Shown: positions 1,687 to 5,955 of the stretch, in pieces | Layout: each line of letters begins with the position of its first letter | Numbering within the stretch: the first letter of the stretch is position 1 | DNA from: Candidatus Bathyarchaeota archaeon | GTDB lineage: Archaea > Thermoproteota > Bathyarchaeia > TCS64 | Reading direction: 5' to 3' | DNA length: 6,926 bases | Assembly: GCA_030601645.1 (NCBI GenBank) | Contig: JAUWBQ010000094.1 | Coordinates: 1 to 6,926, forward strand | Notes under the pieces: model-generated | The model's input: the letters and a program-made list of their open reading frames with translations, nothing else | Told to the model about the DNA's origin: nothing | Databases searched by the model: none | Made by a program: the position numbers and the translations under genes

Positions 1687-2400
1687 TTGTGCGCCCATTT
1701 CCTGATAGAAGGGGTAGACCAGCTCGTCCACGGTCAGACAAAGAGAGGTAACGTACTCCTACTATCAGCAATGCCAGGGACCGGAAAGAGTACATTCGGG
1801 CTCCAATTCCTTGAAGAAGGTTTCAGAGAAAATCAGCCGGGAATCGCGATTGTAACCGATATCTCATCAGAGGAGTTCGTCTCCATGGCCGATACATTCG
1901 GCTTCAGATGGGAGGGACACGTTGAATCGGGTCTTCTGAAGATCGTGGACTGTTACTCCCATATGCTGGGAAGAGGGCGCATGGGAAACGAGGTCTATTC
2001 GAAGTTCCAGGTCAATGATCCCGAGGACCTTACCAACGTGAGCATCACACTGAGCGAGGCACGGGAGGACACGGAAAATGGCCGGCTGCTGCTGGACAAT
2101 GCATCCACCTTGATACTTCTTTCGAATCCATCTGCGGGGGTCAAGTTTCTGTCAAGCATATCCTCGCGGATGAAACGAAGCGGGTTCACCTGTGTTTTCA
2201 TCCTAGAGGGCGGCGTTCACGATACACAGATCCTGAATAGGCTTCGCTACCTATTGGACGGGGTTCTGGACATGAGATTGGAGGAGACCGAGGACGACAG
2301 ACAAAGATTCTTCAGGATTTACAGCCTGCGCGGATGCAGGCACGAGACGAGGTGGATATCGTTCACCATCAAAGACAACGGCTTTTTCTTGGAGGTCTAG
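1687..2400 (+). CDS. Divergent KaiC-like/RAD55-type ATPase with altered catalytic motifs
   Basis: The 237-residue product is a single RecA-fold domain of the KaiC/RAD55 kind. Walker A is AMPGTGKST at 28-36 and Walker B is RLLLD at 133-137. Two motifs differ from the neighbouring ATPase: where KaiC proteins have an acidic pair after the second strand, this one reads D58-I59, so the presumed catalytic Glu is missing, and the C-terminal KxRG is S213-L-R215-G. It probably binds ATP but may hydrolyse it poorly; that is inference. The C terminus ('TIKDNGFFLEV') fits the normal end of the domain. The TTG at 1687 is the only start between the in-frame stop at 1666 and Walker A that allows a whole domain, and a TATA-like box lies at the right distance for a leaderless mRNA. 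The extracellular binding-protein gene follows after 134 nt, so cotranscription is possible but unproven. Confidence 0.85.
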   Translation: MCAHFLIEGVDQLVHGQTKRGNVLLLSAMPGTGKSTFGLQFLEEGFRENQPGIAIVTDISSEEFVSMADTFGFRWEGHVESGLLKIVDCYSHMLGRGRMGNEVYSKFQVNDPEDLTNVSITLSEAREDTENGRLLLDNASTLILLSNPSAGVKFLSSISSRMKRSGFTCVFILEGGVHDTQILNRLRYLLDGVLDMRLEETEDDRQRFFRIYSLRGCRHETRWISFTIKDNGFFLEV

Positions 2401-2451: not shown

Positions 2452-2541
2452 ATGTCGTCTGCAACCCTAACTGACCCGATATCTTCACAGCCGTTTGATA
2501 TTTTCAGGATTATCGAGGAAACACGTGAGCTGAAATGCTAG
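2452..2541 (+). CDS. Possible 29-codon leader ORF overlapping the solute-binding protein start (doubtful)
   Basis: An ATG at 2452 opens a 29-residue frame ending at TAG 2539-2541, 4 bp inside the downstream coding region, giving an ATGCTAG overlap that could couple translation. The peptide includes 'PFDIFRIIEETRELK', which would form an amphipathic helix. The same frame is open all the way back to the stop of the KaiC-like gene at 2398-2400, so it could also be a remnant of a longer C terminus. No Shine-Dalgarno is clear. It may well be chance. Confidence 0.2.
   Translation: MSSATLTDPISSQPFDIFRIIEETRELKC
2494..2530 (+). promoter_or_regulatory. Weak TATA-like box and Shine-Dalgarno ahead of the solute-binding protein gene
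   Basis: TTTGATATTTTC at 2494-2505 is the best TATA-like sequence in the 134-nt gap and lies 30-41 nt before the ATG at 2535. GTGAG at 2525-2529 resembles the archaeal GGTGA Shine-Dalgarno core and sits 5-6 nt before the start. Both are weak matches; the gene could instead be read through from the ATPase gene. Confidence 0.3.
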
Positions 2542-3887
2542 GAAAGAGGATACCTCAGAGGACCAAGATATATTTCATATTCGCCGTAATCGGCCTCATA
2601 ATCGTTGGAGCCGCCGTCGTATACTTGATCGCCCCTCCGAGGACCTCGACCACTATCGTGGTTGAGCACTGGACCGAGCTTGTTGAACCCGATAGACAGA
2701 TCATCCTGAATCAACTAGCAGAAGACTTCATGGAAGAAAACCAAGGCATCGAGGTGGTCATCGTGCCCGTGCCGGAGGACGACCTCCCGGAAAGGCTCGC
2801 CGAGGCGAAGGAGGCCAACGCCCTCCCGGACACGGTGCGCGTCGGCTTCGGGCACGTGGGGGGATGGACCCTGGAGGGGATACTCGATCCGGGACCCGCC
2901 CAGGAGATCATCGATGAGCTAGAGGGCGACACCTGGGGCGCCGGAACCCTGGAGCTGTTCAGATCGCCGAGCGGCGAAGGATCCGCGGCCGTCCCATCCG
3001 ACGGCTGGCTGCAGGGGATATGGTACAGGAAGGACCTGTTCGAGGCAGCGGGCCTCGACCCCCCGACGACGTGGGACGCAATCTTGGAAGCATGCAGGGC
3101 CTTGAACAACCCCACGGAAGGCTTCTACGGAATCATGCTGGGCACAAACCCGGAGACCGTGTACACCCAACAATGCTACGAAGCGTTTGCCCTCTCAATC
3201 GACGCCAGGGCGTTCGACTACTACACAAGGGAGCCCACCCTAGATACACATGAGCAGGCGGCCACACTCGAGTTCTATGCCGAGCTGGCAAGCTACGCCC
3301 CAGCCACACCCATAACATGGGAGGATGCCAACGAATACTACCTGACGGGCAACAGCGCCATGATGATCTACTCGACGTACATCATCGACGACATCCTCGG
3401 AGTGGACAAGAGAGACTGGACGCCGATCCCGCAGCTATCCGAGAAAACAGGGTTCGTATCCACCATCGAGGGGCCGTCAGGGAAAAAATCTGCCTGGGGC
3501 GAACTCTACGGCTTCGGCATATCGACGACCGCCGACAAAGAGGCCGCAAAAGTCTGGATAAAATACATCCTCGAGGAACGCCTCTACGACTACGTCTCCA
3601 TCTCGATAGTGGGCATGCTGCCCGCGAGGAACACCATCATCGAGAGATGGAAGGAACATGAATACTTCGCAGAGTATTCCCCAGAGCTCGCGGACCAGAT
3701 AATATCCGGGTTCAACTTCATCGAGAGATGGGGATACCAGGACGGTAAGGTCTTCCCCGGGGTCGCCGAGCTATACAGCGAGTTCCCGATACCCCAGGTC
3801 ATCGGTAAACTGCTCGAGGGCGAGCTGACACCGGCAGAAGCCGCCCAGTGGGTCCAGGATGTAATGGAGGAGCTGACCCAAGAATAG
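2535..3887 (+). CDS. Membrane-anchored extracellular solute-binding protein, sugar-type (family 1)
   Basis: The 450-residue product is a full-length periplasmic-binding-type fold for the cell exterior. A basic N terminus (KRIPQRTK) precedes one hydrophobic helix at about 12-33; there is no lipobox Cys, so it is probably an uncleaved anchor or a non-lipoprotein signal. The mature part starts with 'VVEHWTELVEPDRQ' and 'LAEDFMEENQGIEV', typical first-lobe strand and helix of UgpB/MalE-like proteins. The family signature 'WYRKDLFEAAGLDPPTTWD' begins at W163, and 'NSAMMIYSTYIIDD' matches the second-lobe 'G.AAM' segment. Such proteins bind sugars or oligosaccharides (glycerol phosphate in UgpB) and pass them to an ABC permease, but no permease or ABC ATPase gene is in the window. 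The next gene starts 14 nt after the stop, so the two are very probably one operon. The ligand cannot be read from sequence. Confidence 0.88.
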   Translation: MLGKRIPQRTKIYFIFAVIGLIIVGAAVVYLIAPPRTSTTIVVEHWTELVEPDRQIILNQLAEDFMEENQGIEVVIVPVPEDDLPERLAEAKEANALPDTVRVGFGHVGGWTLEGILDPGPAQEIIDELEGDTWGAGTLELFRSPSGEGSAAVPSDGWLQGIWYRKDLFEAAGLDPPTTWDAILEACRALNNPTEGFYGIMLGTNPETVYTQQCYEAFALSIDARAFDYYTREPTLDTHEQAATLEFYAELASYAPATPITWEDANEYYLTGNSAMMIYSTYIIDDILGVDKRDWTPIPQLSEKTGFVSTIEGPSGKKSAWGELYGFGISTTADKEAAKVWIKYILEERLYDYVSISIVGMLPARNTIIERWKEHEYFAEYSPELADQIISGFNFIERWGYQDGKVFPGVAELYSEFPIPQVIGKLLEGELTPAEAAQWVQDVMEELTQE

Positions 3888-3901: not shown

Positions 3902-4558
3902 ATGAGAAGAACCGTCGGATCACAGAACTGGAAGATAATAGCATTACTCGTCTTAGTTTCCGTGGCATCGACACACGCCACGCCCCCCGTTCGTGGGCAA
4001 ACGGAGAGGCTGGTCGTCCTGATGCCCACACCTTCAAAATACATTGACCCATACATCGAGATGTTCCAAGAGTGGTACGAGGCAAAGACGGGAAAGACCA
4101 TAGAGGTCCAGCACTTCCGGCTGGGGGGCGTCAAATGCCTGAGCCACGTCGAGTCACAGGGAGGGAACCCGCAGGAAGACGTCGTCGCGAGCCTCGGATA
4201 CGACGAGTTCAAGAGGCTCAAGACAGGGGGCTTCCTCGAGGCCTACATGGCCCAGAACAGGGAGCAGATACCCGAGAAGATAGGCCCCCTCATCGGAAAG
4301 GATCAAGCCGGCTACTACACCGGTTTCAGCTTGGCGGCATATGGCATCATGCTGAACACACAGGTCATGGAGGACGAGAACCTGGCCAAGCCCACTGGAT
4401 ACATGGATCTCGCCCTGAACGAGGACTACTACGGACGCATAGCAAGGGGGTCGCCGATATCGACGAGCATCGCCCACGGAAACGCCGAGGTGATACTCGG
4501 ACACTACGGCTGGGTGCAAGGGTGGAACGTGAGCATCCAGCTGGCATCCCTTATATAG
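3902..4558 (+). CDS. N-terminal part of a solute-binding sensor protein, interrupted by a frameshift
   Basis: The reading frame begins at ATG 3902, 9 nt after a GGAG Shine-Dalgarno (3889-3892), and runs 218 codons to TAG 4556-4558. Residues 1-33 form a Sec-type signal (basic MRRT, hydrophobic 'IIALLVLVSVAS', likely cleavage near 'THA' or further on). The rest is the first lobe and hinge of an iron/AfuA-type extracellular binding protein: 'LVVLMPTPSKYIDPYIEMF', 'DEFKRLKTGGFLEAY', 'GYYTGFSLAAYGIMLNTQVM' and 'DYYGRIARGSPISTS' mirror the order of family motifs. The protein stops abruptly after 'GWNVSIQLASLI', in the middle of the fold. The missing second lobe is encoded immediately downstream in the -1 frame, so this is half of one gene, not a complete protein. 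An upstream in-frame extension to 3848 overlaps the previous gene and is not needed. Confidence 0.85.
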   Translation: MRRTVGSQNWKIIALLVLVSVASTHATPPVRGQTERLVVLMPTPSKYIDPYIEMFQEWYEAKTGKTIEVQHFRLGGVKCLSHVESQGGNPQEDVVASLGYDEFKRLKTGGFLEAYMAQNREQIPEKIGPLIGKDQAGYYTGFSLAAYGIMLNTQVMEDENLAKPTGYMDLALNEDYYGRIARGSPISTSIAHGNAEVILGHYGWVQGWNVSIQLASLI

Positions 4559-4560
4559 AC
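4541..4560 (+). other. Single-base frameshift point joining the two halves of the sensor gene
   Basis: The upstream frame reads 'QLAS' then L-I-stop (TAG 4556-4558), while the -1 frame picks up at 'PYIDRFF' from 4549. Adding one base in the CCC run at 4548-4550 gives a continuous 'QLASPYIDRFF' whose length fits the binding-protein fold. The codons TCC CTT do not allow a standard X-XXY-YYZ -1 slip, and no ATG, GTG or TTG occurs in the downstream frame until 4777, so programmed slippage or reinitiation is unlikely. A sequencing/assembly deletion or a real mutation explains it best. Confidence 0.75.
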
Positions 4561-5955
4561 AGGTTCTTCATCAGCACGGACACGGCCACGGCTTCAACCG
4601 CCTACGGGGAGTACGCCGCAGTCCTGACCAAGAACACGTACTGGAACGAGTACGTTCAGGCCGGATATCCGGTCGAGTGGATATGGCCCGACGACGGGAC
4701 GGGCGTCTACATCCTGTACGCTGGGATACTGAAGGGGGCTGAGAACCGGGAGAACGCAGAGCTCTGGATAGACTGGATGCTCAGCGGGGAGGGGCAGCGG
4801 GCCTGGGTCGAGTTCCGTCACGAGACGGTCTTGAGGTCGGACATCGTGCTGCCCGGGGGCATACCGACTCTGGACGAGCTGGACATCGCGGAGAAGATCG
4901 ATCCAGCCTACAACTCCACGGTCGTACAGCAGCAGTACGATGCGGTGAGCACCATCTGGTCCGAGAAGCTGATAGGGTCTCACAGCGTGATCCAGAAGAA
5001 CTACCTGAATAAGGACACGCTCTACGGCTACCTCGACAGCTGGATAATCAAGCCGACTCAGCAGGCGGACGACGCCATAACACAGGCCCAGAACACGATA
5101 GATCTGGTCGAGGCCGTGGAGCTGACCGAGACGGGACAGGTCCTGCTCCAGCAGGCGAAGACGAAGCTGTCCGAGGCTGAGACGGCATCCCGGATCTATC
5201 TCGACCATGAGAAGGCCGTGGAGCTGGCGAGCGAGTCCTACAGCCAGGCTCAGATTGCGGCGGGGTATTCTCCCCCTCCTCCAGTCTGGCCCTACTACCT
5301 GGCCATGATAATCGCGGTGGTCCTCGCCGGATCCGTCAGCGGGAAACTGGGATACGACTACTTCAAGAGACGGTACAAGGAGTCCATCGATGAGGTTTTC
5401 CAGAACCTTAAGGACAAGCTCGAGGTCGACGAAGCCGGGCGCCTTCTCCTGGTCAGCGACGTAATGAGGGTGCCCATGATCCTCGCCACGAGGGATCACA
5501 TCACCCAGATTCAGAAGACCTGTGAACGGATCCTGGGCAAGGAGAGGATGGTCGAGGTCATGTACCAGAGTGGCTTTGAGAGCGGTTATGATTTCGCCAC
5601 CGCGATCGCAAGCATGTCCGAGTTGAAGGGGGTGCAGATACTCGAAGAATACATGAGGCTGGCTTCGGTTCGAGGGTGGGGGCGCTTCAAAAAAATATTG
5701 ACCGATGTCGAGTCAGGAGTGTTCACCATCCAGATACAAAGTTCCATCGTCGAGGAGTTCCCACCCGGAGAGGGAAGGGTCTGTCATATCTGGAGGGGAC
5801 TATTCGCGGGAGTCGTCCAGGCGGTCCTTGAGAGCTTGGAGAAGACGGGGGATTTGAGGAGTGAGGAGACAATGTGTTTGGCAGATGGGGACTCTCATTG
5901 CGAAATACGAATCACAGTTACATCCACTGGATCTGATGACCTGAGTCCAATGTGA
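4549..5955 (+). CDS. C-terminal part of the sensor: binding-protein second lobe, helical stalk, transmembrane helix, V4R domain
   Basis: Numbering follows the repaired 684-residue protein. The second SBP lobe runs from about 217 to 370 ('STDTATASTAYGEYAAVLT', 'YAGILKGAENRENAELWIDW', 'VLRSDIVLPGG'). An Ala/Gln/Glu-rich helical stalk (about 375-455) leads to PPPP and one transmembrane helix at about 463-482 ('WPYYLAMIIAVVLAGSV'), then a basic, helical cytoplasmic linker. Residues about 514-680 match a V4R (4-vinyl-reductase-like) domain: 'RLLLVSDVM', 'GKERMVEVMYQSGFESGYDF', and the late Cys signature C628 ('GRVCHIWRGLFAG'), C659 and C667 ('ETMCLADGDSHCEI'). V4R domains are small-molecule-binding modules; the cysteines may bind metal. 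The topology puts the SBP outside and V4R inside, like a one-helix receptor. No start codon suits this part alone before 4777. An unusual fusion; the V4R call is firm, the sensing role inferred. Confidence 0.88.
   Translation, partial: PYIDRFFISTDTATASTAYGEYAAVLTKNTYWNEYVQAGYPVEWIWPDDGTGVYILYAGILKGAENRENAELWIDWMLSGEGQRAWVEFRHETVLRSDIVLPGGIPTLDELDIAEKIDPAYNSTVVQQQYDAVSTIWSEKLIGSHSVIQKNYLNKDTLYGYLDSWIIKPTQQADDAITQAQNTIDLVEAVELTETGQVLLQQAKTKLSEAETASRIYLDHEKAVELASESYSQAQIAAGYSPPPPVWPYYLAMIIAVVLAGSVSGKLGYDYFKRRYKESIDEVFQNLKDKLEVDEAGRLLLVSDVMRVPMILATRDHITQIQKTCERILGKERMVEVMYQSGFESGYDFATAIASMSELKGVQILEEYMRLASVRGWGRFKKILTDVESGVFTIQIQSSIVEEFPPGEGRVCHIWRGLFAGVVQAVLESLEKTGDLRSEETMCLADGDSHCEIRITVTSTGSDDLSPM

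Follow-up and report, generated by a model that had tools for sequence, protein, structure and literature searches.

Can a solute-binding receptor signal across the membrane when its only cytoplasmic domain is one that normally receives small molecules? V4R, a prokaryotic domain related to the Bet3/TRAPP subunit of eukaryotes, is such an input domain. The question is raised by a gene in a 6,926-nucleotide stretch of DNA from a Candidatus Bathyarchaeota archaeon, which we refer to as the window (Table 1). A preliminary description of the sequence had proposed that this gene encodes a signal peptide, an extracellular solute-binding protein (SBP) domain, a helical stalk, a single transmembrane (TM) helix and a cytoplasmic V4R domain, and both Pfam and hydropathy agree with that order.

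Table 1. Coordinates of the receptor gene, its parts and its neighbours in the window
Feature	Position	Strand	Basis or remark
KaiC/RAD55-type ATPase	1687..2400	+	Pfam ATPase/KaiC 119.9 bits; upstream of receptor
SBP_bac_1 solute-binding protein	2535..3887	+	Pfam 94 bits; ends 14 bp before receptor gene
SBP-TM-V4R receptor gene	3902..5955	+	ATG at 3902, stop at 5955
N-terminal signal peptide, about residues 1-33	3902..4000	+	hydropathy segment 12-30; cleavage site presumed
Extracellular SBP, SBP_bac_6 / AfuA-FbpA type, P0003 35-330	4004..4893	+	split by frame break
Frame break	4550..4560	+	TA run, two bases more than P0003 reading
Helical stalk, P0003 331-458	4894..5277	+	AF2 helices
Single TM helix, P0003 461-483	5284..5352	+	hydropathy; AF2 helix 462-478
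Juxtamembrane helix, P0003 484-505	5353..5418	+	joins TM to cytoplasmic domain
DUF5943 (PF19367), N-terminal part of V4R/XylR_N-type domain	5461..5691	+	Pfam E 2.5e-11
V4R domain (PF02830)	5743..5916	+	Pfam
Predicted metal site, P0003 numbering	5782..5901	+	C627 5782-5784, E655 5866-5868, C658 5875-5877, C666 5899-5901

The start, the stop and the two-frame translation of the gene are as first described, with frame 2 encoding the first part of the receptor and frame 1 the rest. The description had restored the frame by repairing a single base. Comparison with P0003, an intact relative whose cluster represents 8 member sequences and which matches 99% of the query at 98% identity, does not bear this out, as the window has two extra bases and not one missing. 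The extra bases lie inside CTTATATAGAC (4550-4560), in which the TA run spans 4552-4557 and where P0003 reads IQLASLIDRFF. Outside the break, the window and P0003 differ at 2 of 213 and 13 of 467 aligned positions. The break may be either a sequencing error or a true mutation. We number residues by P0003, in which the three V4R cysteines are 627, 658 and 666; they had been given as C628, C659 and C667 because the one-base repair made the protein one residue longer.

The frame break in the window copy is what an artefact could leave behind, whether a misassembly that fused two genes or a pseudogene in decay. However, the uninterrupted SBP-TM-V4R order, for which the preliminary description had proposed to search other genomes, is present in at least 11 public clusters (from ena, ncbi, lgn and jgi; 57-98% identical), among them the intact P0003. 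The order is therefore not a product of misassembly; an artefact is refuted for the family, and we give it practically no credence for this gene.

The relatives were collected in two overlapping searches, each scoring the 7,995 or 7,996 candidates that shared most words with the query, which returned 24 and 29 proteins, or at least 32 together. At least 11 of the 32 (P0003-P0013, 606-698 amino acids) carry the SBP, stalk, TM helix and DUF5943-V4R in one chain. By precomputed Pfam labels, the same outer module is joined to a histidine kinase in at least 15 of the 32 (P0014, P0016, P0018-P0024 and P0026-P0031), and hmmscan confirmed the kinase in all four of these that were rescanned (P0014, P0016, P0027 and P0031). 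The remaining six include four short sequences that are possible fragments (P0015, P0025, P0032 and P0033) and P0034, a distant SBP with 24% identity. The sixth, P0017 (527 amino acids), has the full outer module and TM helix followed by about 40 residues with no recognisable output, and it is sister to the V4R form P0012 in the outer-module tree. A search with the membrane and V4R region alone, which scored 2,661 candidates, yielded the 11 V4R proteins again, with no different sensor attached to this V4R. Relatives outside this set were sought in plasmid records, which gave 280 matches. All of them were below 60% identity, with coverage of the query never reaching 80%; the ten matches listed aligned over the outer part only, at 27.8-29.8% identity. 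No confirmed relative was found in two scans of genome contigs and one of viral contigs, a weak negative given that few short patterns were used (only PMILTTRD and ASVRGWGRF in one of the genome-contig scans).

The V4R and kinase forms do not fall into two groups. We built one tree from the outer module of all 32 proteins, in which P0034 sits on a very long branch, and another from the SBP domain of the 26 V4R and kinase forms, omitting the other six. In both trees the V4R label requires three changes. The kinase forms P0014 and P0016 lie inside the main V4R clade, with P0016 on a long branch that makes its placement less sure, and the V4R forms P0012 and P0013 lie outside that clade, P0013 adjoining the large kinase clade. 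A single V4R clade is rejected (p-AU 1.9e-62). This rejection, together with the positions of P0014 and P0016, indicates that the output has been exchanged repeatedly on one sensor. Because both trees are unrooted, they do not fix the direction of the exchange. For the 11 V4R members, separate trees built from the outer and the inner half both split off P0012 and P0013 and place P0003 with P0004 and P0005, and they conflict in placing P0007-P0011. The shared deepest split indicates that the two halves evolved together. The pattern would fit a V4R that belonged to the gene from early on and gave way to kinases, which is not proof of it.

One alternative is a co-receptor, in which the V4R protein would form mixed dimers with an SBP-kinase paralogue by way of the outer module, stalk and TM helix that both have in common, and would tune or block the kinase according to an internal hydrophobic ligand. 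The two forms are on average 62.7% identical in the SBP and 42.8% in the stalk, enter the membrane through similar motifs (PPxWPYY in the kinase forms P0014 and P0018, PPSVIPYY in P0016), and have an output-less receptor, P0017, among their relatives. However, the stalk identity is modest, and the membrane helices of the two forms differ. We regard a co-receptor as unlikely.

In the receptor itself, hydropathy places an N-terminal hydrophobic segment in 10 of the 11 V4R members, the exception being P0010, whose sequence has no N-terminus; signal peptides of relatives end in VNAQ, AHAQ, VQAQ and similar motifs. The same scan finds one membrane segment ahead of the cytoplasmic domain in all 11, and in P0003 this segment (461-479) is followed by GKLGYDYFKRRY, with positive charges on the cytoplasmic side. 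The topology that had been put forward for checking, a single TM helix preceding V4R, is thus upheld by hydropathy across the V4R members. In the kinase forms P0018 and P0028, no segment exceeds the hydropathy threshold, although the alignment predicts one. The AF2 model of P0003 places stalk helices at 338-357, 360-365, 370-403, 409-430 and 435-453, and a juxtamembrane helix at 483-505 that has pLDDT below 50 and corresponds to helix 27-49 of the domain model.

The outer domain has both the Pfam match and the fold of an SBP. SBP_bac_6 (PF13343, cut-off 24.6 bits) scores 61.3 bits on intact P0003, and 24.1 bits (just below the cut-off) and 29.5 bits on the two halves in the window. A fold search with the full model was dominated by SBP structures and so tests residues 32-360 only. 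Among the fold matches of the outer domain was 6lkg, which we take to be HptA. We considered two ligands from the closest structures. In AfuA, the sugar phosphate is bound by His205, Asp206 and Glu229 (PMC4546632, as far as the excerpt covers it). The corresponding columns in the 11 V4R members hold T245 (S in P0013), Y246 (D in P0011) and Y269 (H in P0011); the three AfuA residues are absent, and an AfuA-type sugar phosphate was rejected. In FbpA, Tyr195 and Tyr196 are presumably the iron-binding pair. The second of these aligns with Y246. At the first, the 11 V4R members carry T or S; a Tyr stands one position earlier, at 244, in some kinase members. The full pair is absent, and ferric iron of the FbpA type was likewise rejected. 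The NCBIfam aminoethylphosphonate model also fails, scoring 36.6 bits against a cut-off of 392.75. P0011, which has a long branch in the SBP tree, carries Y246 to D, Y269 to H and H192 to L at otherwise near-constant positions; branch and substitutions suggest that it may bind another ligand while keeping the inner domain of its relatives.

Of the three parts measured, the cytoplasmic one shows the highest conservation among V4R members (mean identity 74.6%, compared to 70.1% for the SBP and 56.2% for the stalk). DUF5943 exceeds its own cut-off of 27 bits in the window (44.4), P0003 (43.6), P0012 and P0013, and on the same stretch XylR_N matches weakly in P0012 (0.0021) and P0003 (0.0061), with none listed for P0013. 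The Pfam check that had been suggested for V4R gave E 1.1e-6 in the window with a score of 29.1 bits, slightly below the 31-bit cut-off; on rescanning, P0013 passes (32.7 bits), and P0003 (28.3) and P0012 (27.7) fall below. Nine of the 11 V4R members have a precomputed V4R label, and the other two, P0004 and P0006, keep DUF5943 and all four metal ligands. The V4R/XylR_N fold was recovered by structure prediction: the AF2 fold of the cytoplasmic model is nearest, by Foldseek, to the phenol sensor domains of MopR, PoxR and DmpR. The two AF2 models, of this domain and of the full chain, are of medium confidence (pLDDT 65 and 67, pTM 0.63 and 0.47). An H-NOX fold ranked after the phenol sensors and was set aside, scoring lower (best 8.3) than MopR, MJ1460 and Bet3. 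When PDB sequences were searched with a profile of eight cytoplasmic domains, no V4R chain came up, MopR included; the only match, a lectin (E 0.19), was taken as chance.

The three cysteines pointed out earlier are real, and with E655 they are invariant in all 11 V4R members. C627, E655, C658 and C666 align with C155, E178, C181 and C189 of the MopR zinc site in a weak sequence match (7vqf; E 0.45), and on this alignment we predict a putative zinc site as in MopR. For the His-Trp pair that anchors phenol, no candidate stands at the expected spacing, as judged without a full MopR alignment. W592 is the sole Trp of P0003 in columns 500-626 and is present in all 11; the only His residues there are H532 (10 of 11), H562 (P0012 and P0013) and H612 (P0011-P0013). 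V4R is the last domain, with no AAA+ sigma54 activator domain after it in the window or the rescanned relatives by Pfam, and HisKA and HATPase are absent from the window pieces, from the rescans of P0003, P0012 and P0013, and from the Pfam labels precomputed for all 11 V4R members. The claim that the receptor has no kinase, DNA-binding or cyclase output was borne out.

Pocket and cysteines together bear on another reading, in which V4R is only a second sensor, of a hydrophobic metabolite or redox state, that would alter the affinity of the outer domain or report the coincidence of two ligands, with no outer-to-inner output. According to the excerpts available, the V4R domain of DmpR binds phenol (PMC7264223), MsvR senses redox through three conserved V4R cysteines (PMC3729527), and PYP-V4R proteins have been interpreted as joining two inputs with no relay between them (PMC12826048). 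However, the cysteine spacing is 31 and 8 here compared to 26 and 8 in M. acetivorans MsvR, the invariant Glu near the cysteines makes a structural metal site as likely as a redox switch, and V4R occupies the output position of the sister kinases. We consider such an integrator unlikely.

The neighbouring genes offer candidates for a partner. The SBP_bac_1 protein encoded just upstream has an N-terminal hydrophobic stretch resembling a membrane anchor, and it is a possible partner of the receptor. A role as signalling hubs in archaea has been proposed for KaiC-like ATPases (cited in PMC5847659, in the part available), and for this reason we regard the upstream KaiC-like ATPase (1687-2400) as a candidate partner, by position only. 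It is more diverged (119.9 bits) than a second KaiC/RAD55-type ATPase at 781-1482 on the opposite strand (229.8 bits). A small, probably membrane protein at 338-784, with no Pfam family above the cut-off, is flanked by a fragment of a FilR1-type regulator (FilR1_middle) and by the opposite-strand KaiC-like gene. The regulator fragment and the two KaiC-like ATPases are what one would look for in archaeal DNA. A promoter and terminator scan, with models of bacterial types only, stayed at chance level.

SBP folds serve mostly transport, and a second SBP lies next to the receptor gene. Another reading is that the protein, anchored in the membrane, captures nutrients for an ABC transporter; V4R would then be an accessory domain that binds a lipid or a complex, and the protein would have no role in signalling. 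The relation of V4R to the Bet3 tethering subunit (PMC2253512, in the available text) would suit such a role. However, neither an ABC permease nor an ABC ATPase is present among the seven open reading frames or pieces scanned in the window, where an MFS fragment at the right end is the sole transporter, and the outer module is fused to histidine kinases in at least 15 of 32 homologues. Nutrient capture is very unlikely in our view.

We interpret the anatomy, the conservation as one gene and the exchange with kinases, each demonstrated at the level of sequence, as probably reflecting a single-pass transmembrane receptor that carries V4R in the output position and signals in trans. An outer ligand would close the SBP domain, and closure would pass through the stalk and TM helix to a presumed V4R dimer, which would sit where relatives have the kinase and do the signalling in the cytoplasm. 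V4R ends the chain, so the signal would have to go to another protein in trans. The hydrophobic pocket and metal site of V4R may add a second input from an internal ligand. We infer the output role from position, and V4R is usually an input domain. More tentatively, V4R may be a true output module of some archaeal transmembrane receptors, a membrane-tethered dimer that is switched by the SBP and either controls a soluble partner, such as a KaiC-like hub ATPase, or releases a hydrophobic messenger; we see this as a possibility of lesser weight. If it is true, receptors have switched several times between kinase and V4R signalling with the sensor unchanged. This natural series, in which one sensor carries a kinase in some members and V4R in others, shows V4R at the output position and makes its handling of a signal testable, in organisms whose signalling beyond two-component systems is poorly understood.

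Among known systems, the SBP-histidine kinase fusions share the SBP, stalk and membrane entry with the receptor (best local identity to the query 47-66%) and have HisKA and HATPase instead of DUF5943-V4R, with PAS in P0014, P0016 and P0031 and GAF in P0016. In HptA-HptS of Staphylococcus aureus and in BvgS-type Venus-flytrap kinases, as is proposed for the receptor, a membrane signalling protein is driven by a sensor with the SBP fold; HptA, however, is a protein of its own, the SBP domains of BvgS are tandem and of a different type, and both systems end in a kinase (PMC8534201, as excerpted). On the cytoplasmic side, MopR, PoxR and DmpR combine XylR_N and V4R at the N-terminus and drive an AAA+ sigma54 activator, whereas the V4R of the receptor is its last domain. 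The available part of the work on MsvR of methanogens describes an archaeal V4R with three conserved cysteines, as here, in a homodimer (PMC3729527). MetOD1 likewise places a V4R-like domain with three conserved cysteines at the output position, but as the output domain of archaeal response regulators and not of a membrane receptor, and the authors suggest an enzymatic role (PMC5847659, in the excerpt available). The open-licence papers searched contain no report of an SBP-TM-V4R receptor, in line with the earlier statement that no described one was known, and none of them mentions DUF5943. PYP-V4R fusions resemble the receptor in having a sensor N-terminal to V4R and no apparent relay domain; the sensor in front is one for blue light, and the accessible portion of the paper mentions no membrane crossing (PMC12826048). 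These precedents each cover only parts of the receptor, and the PYP-V4R proteins are a published precedent for two sensors joined without a relay.
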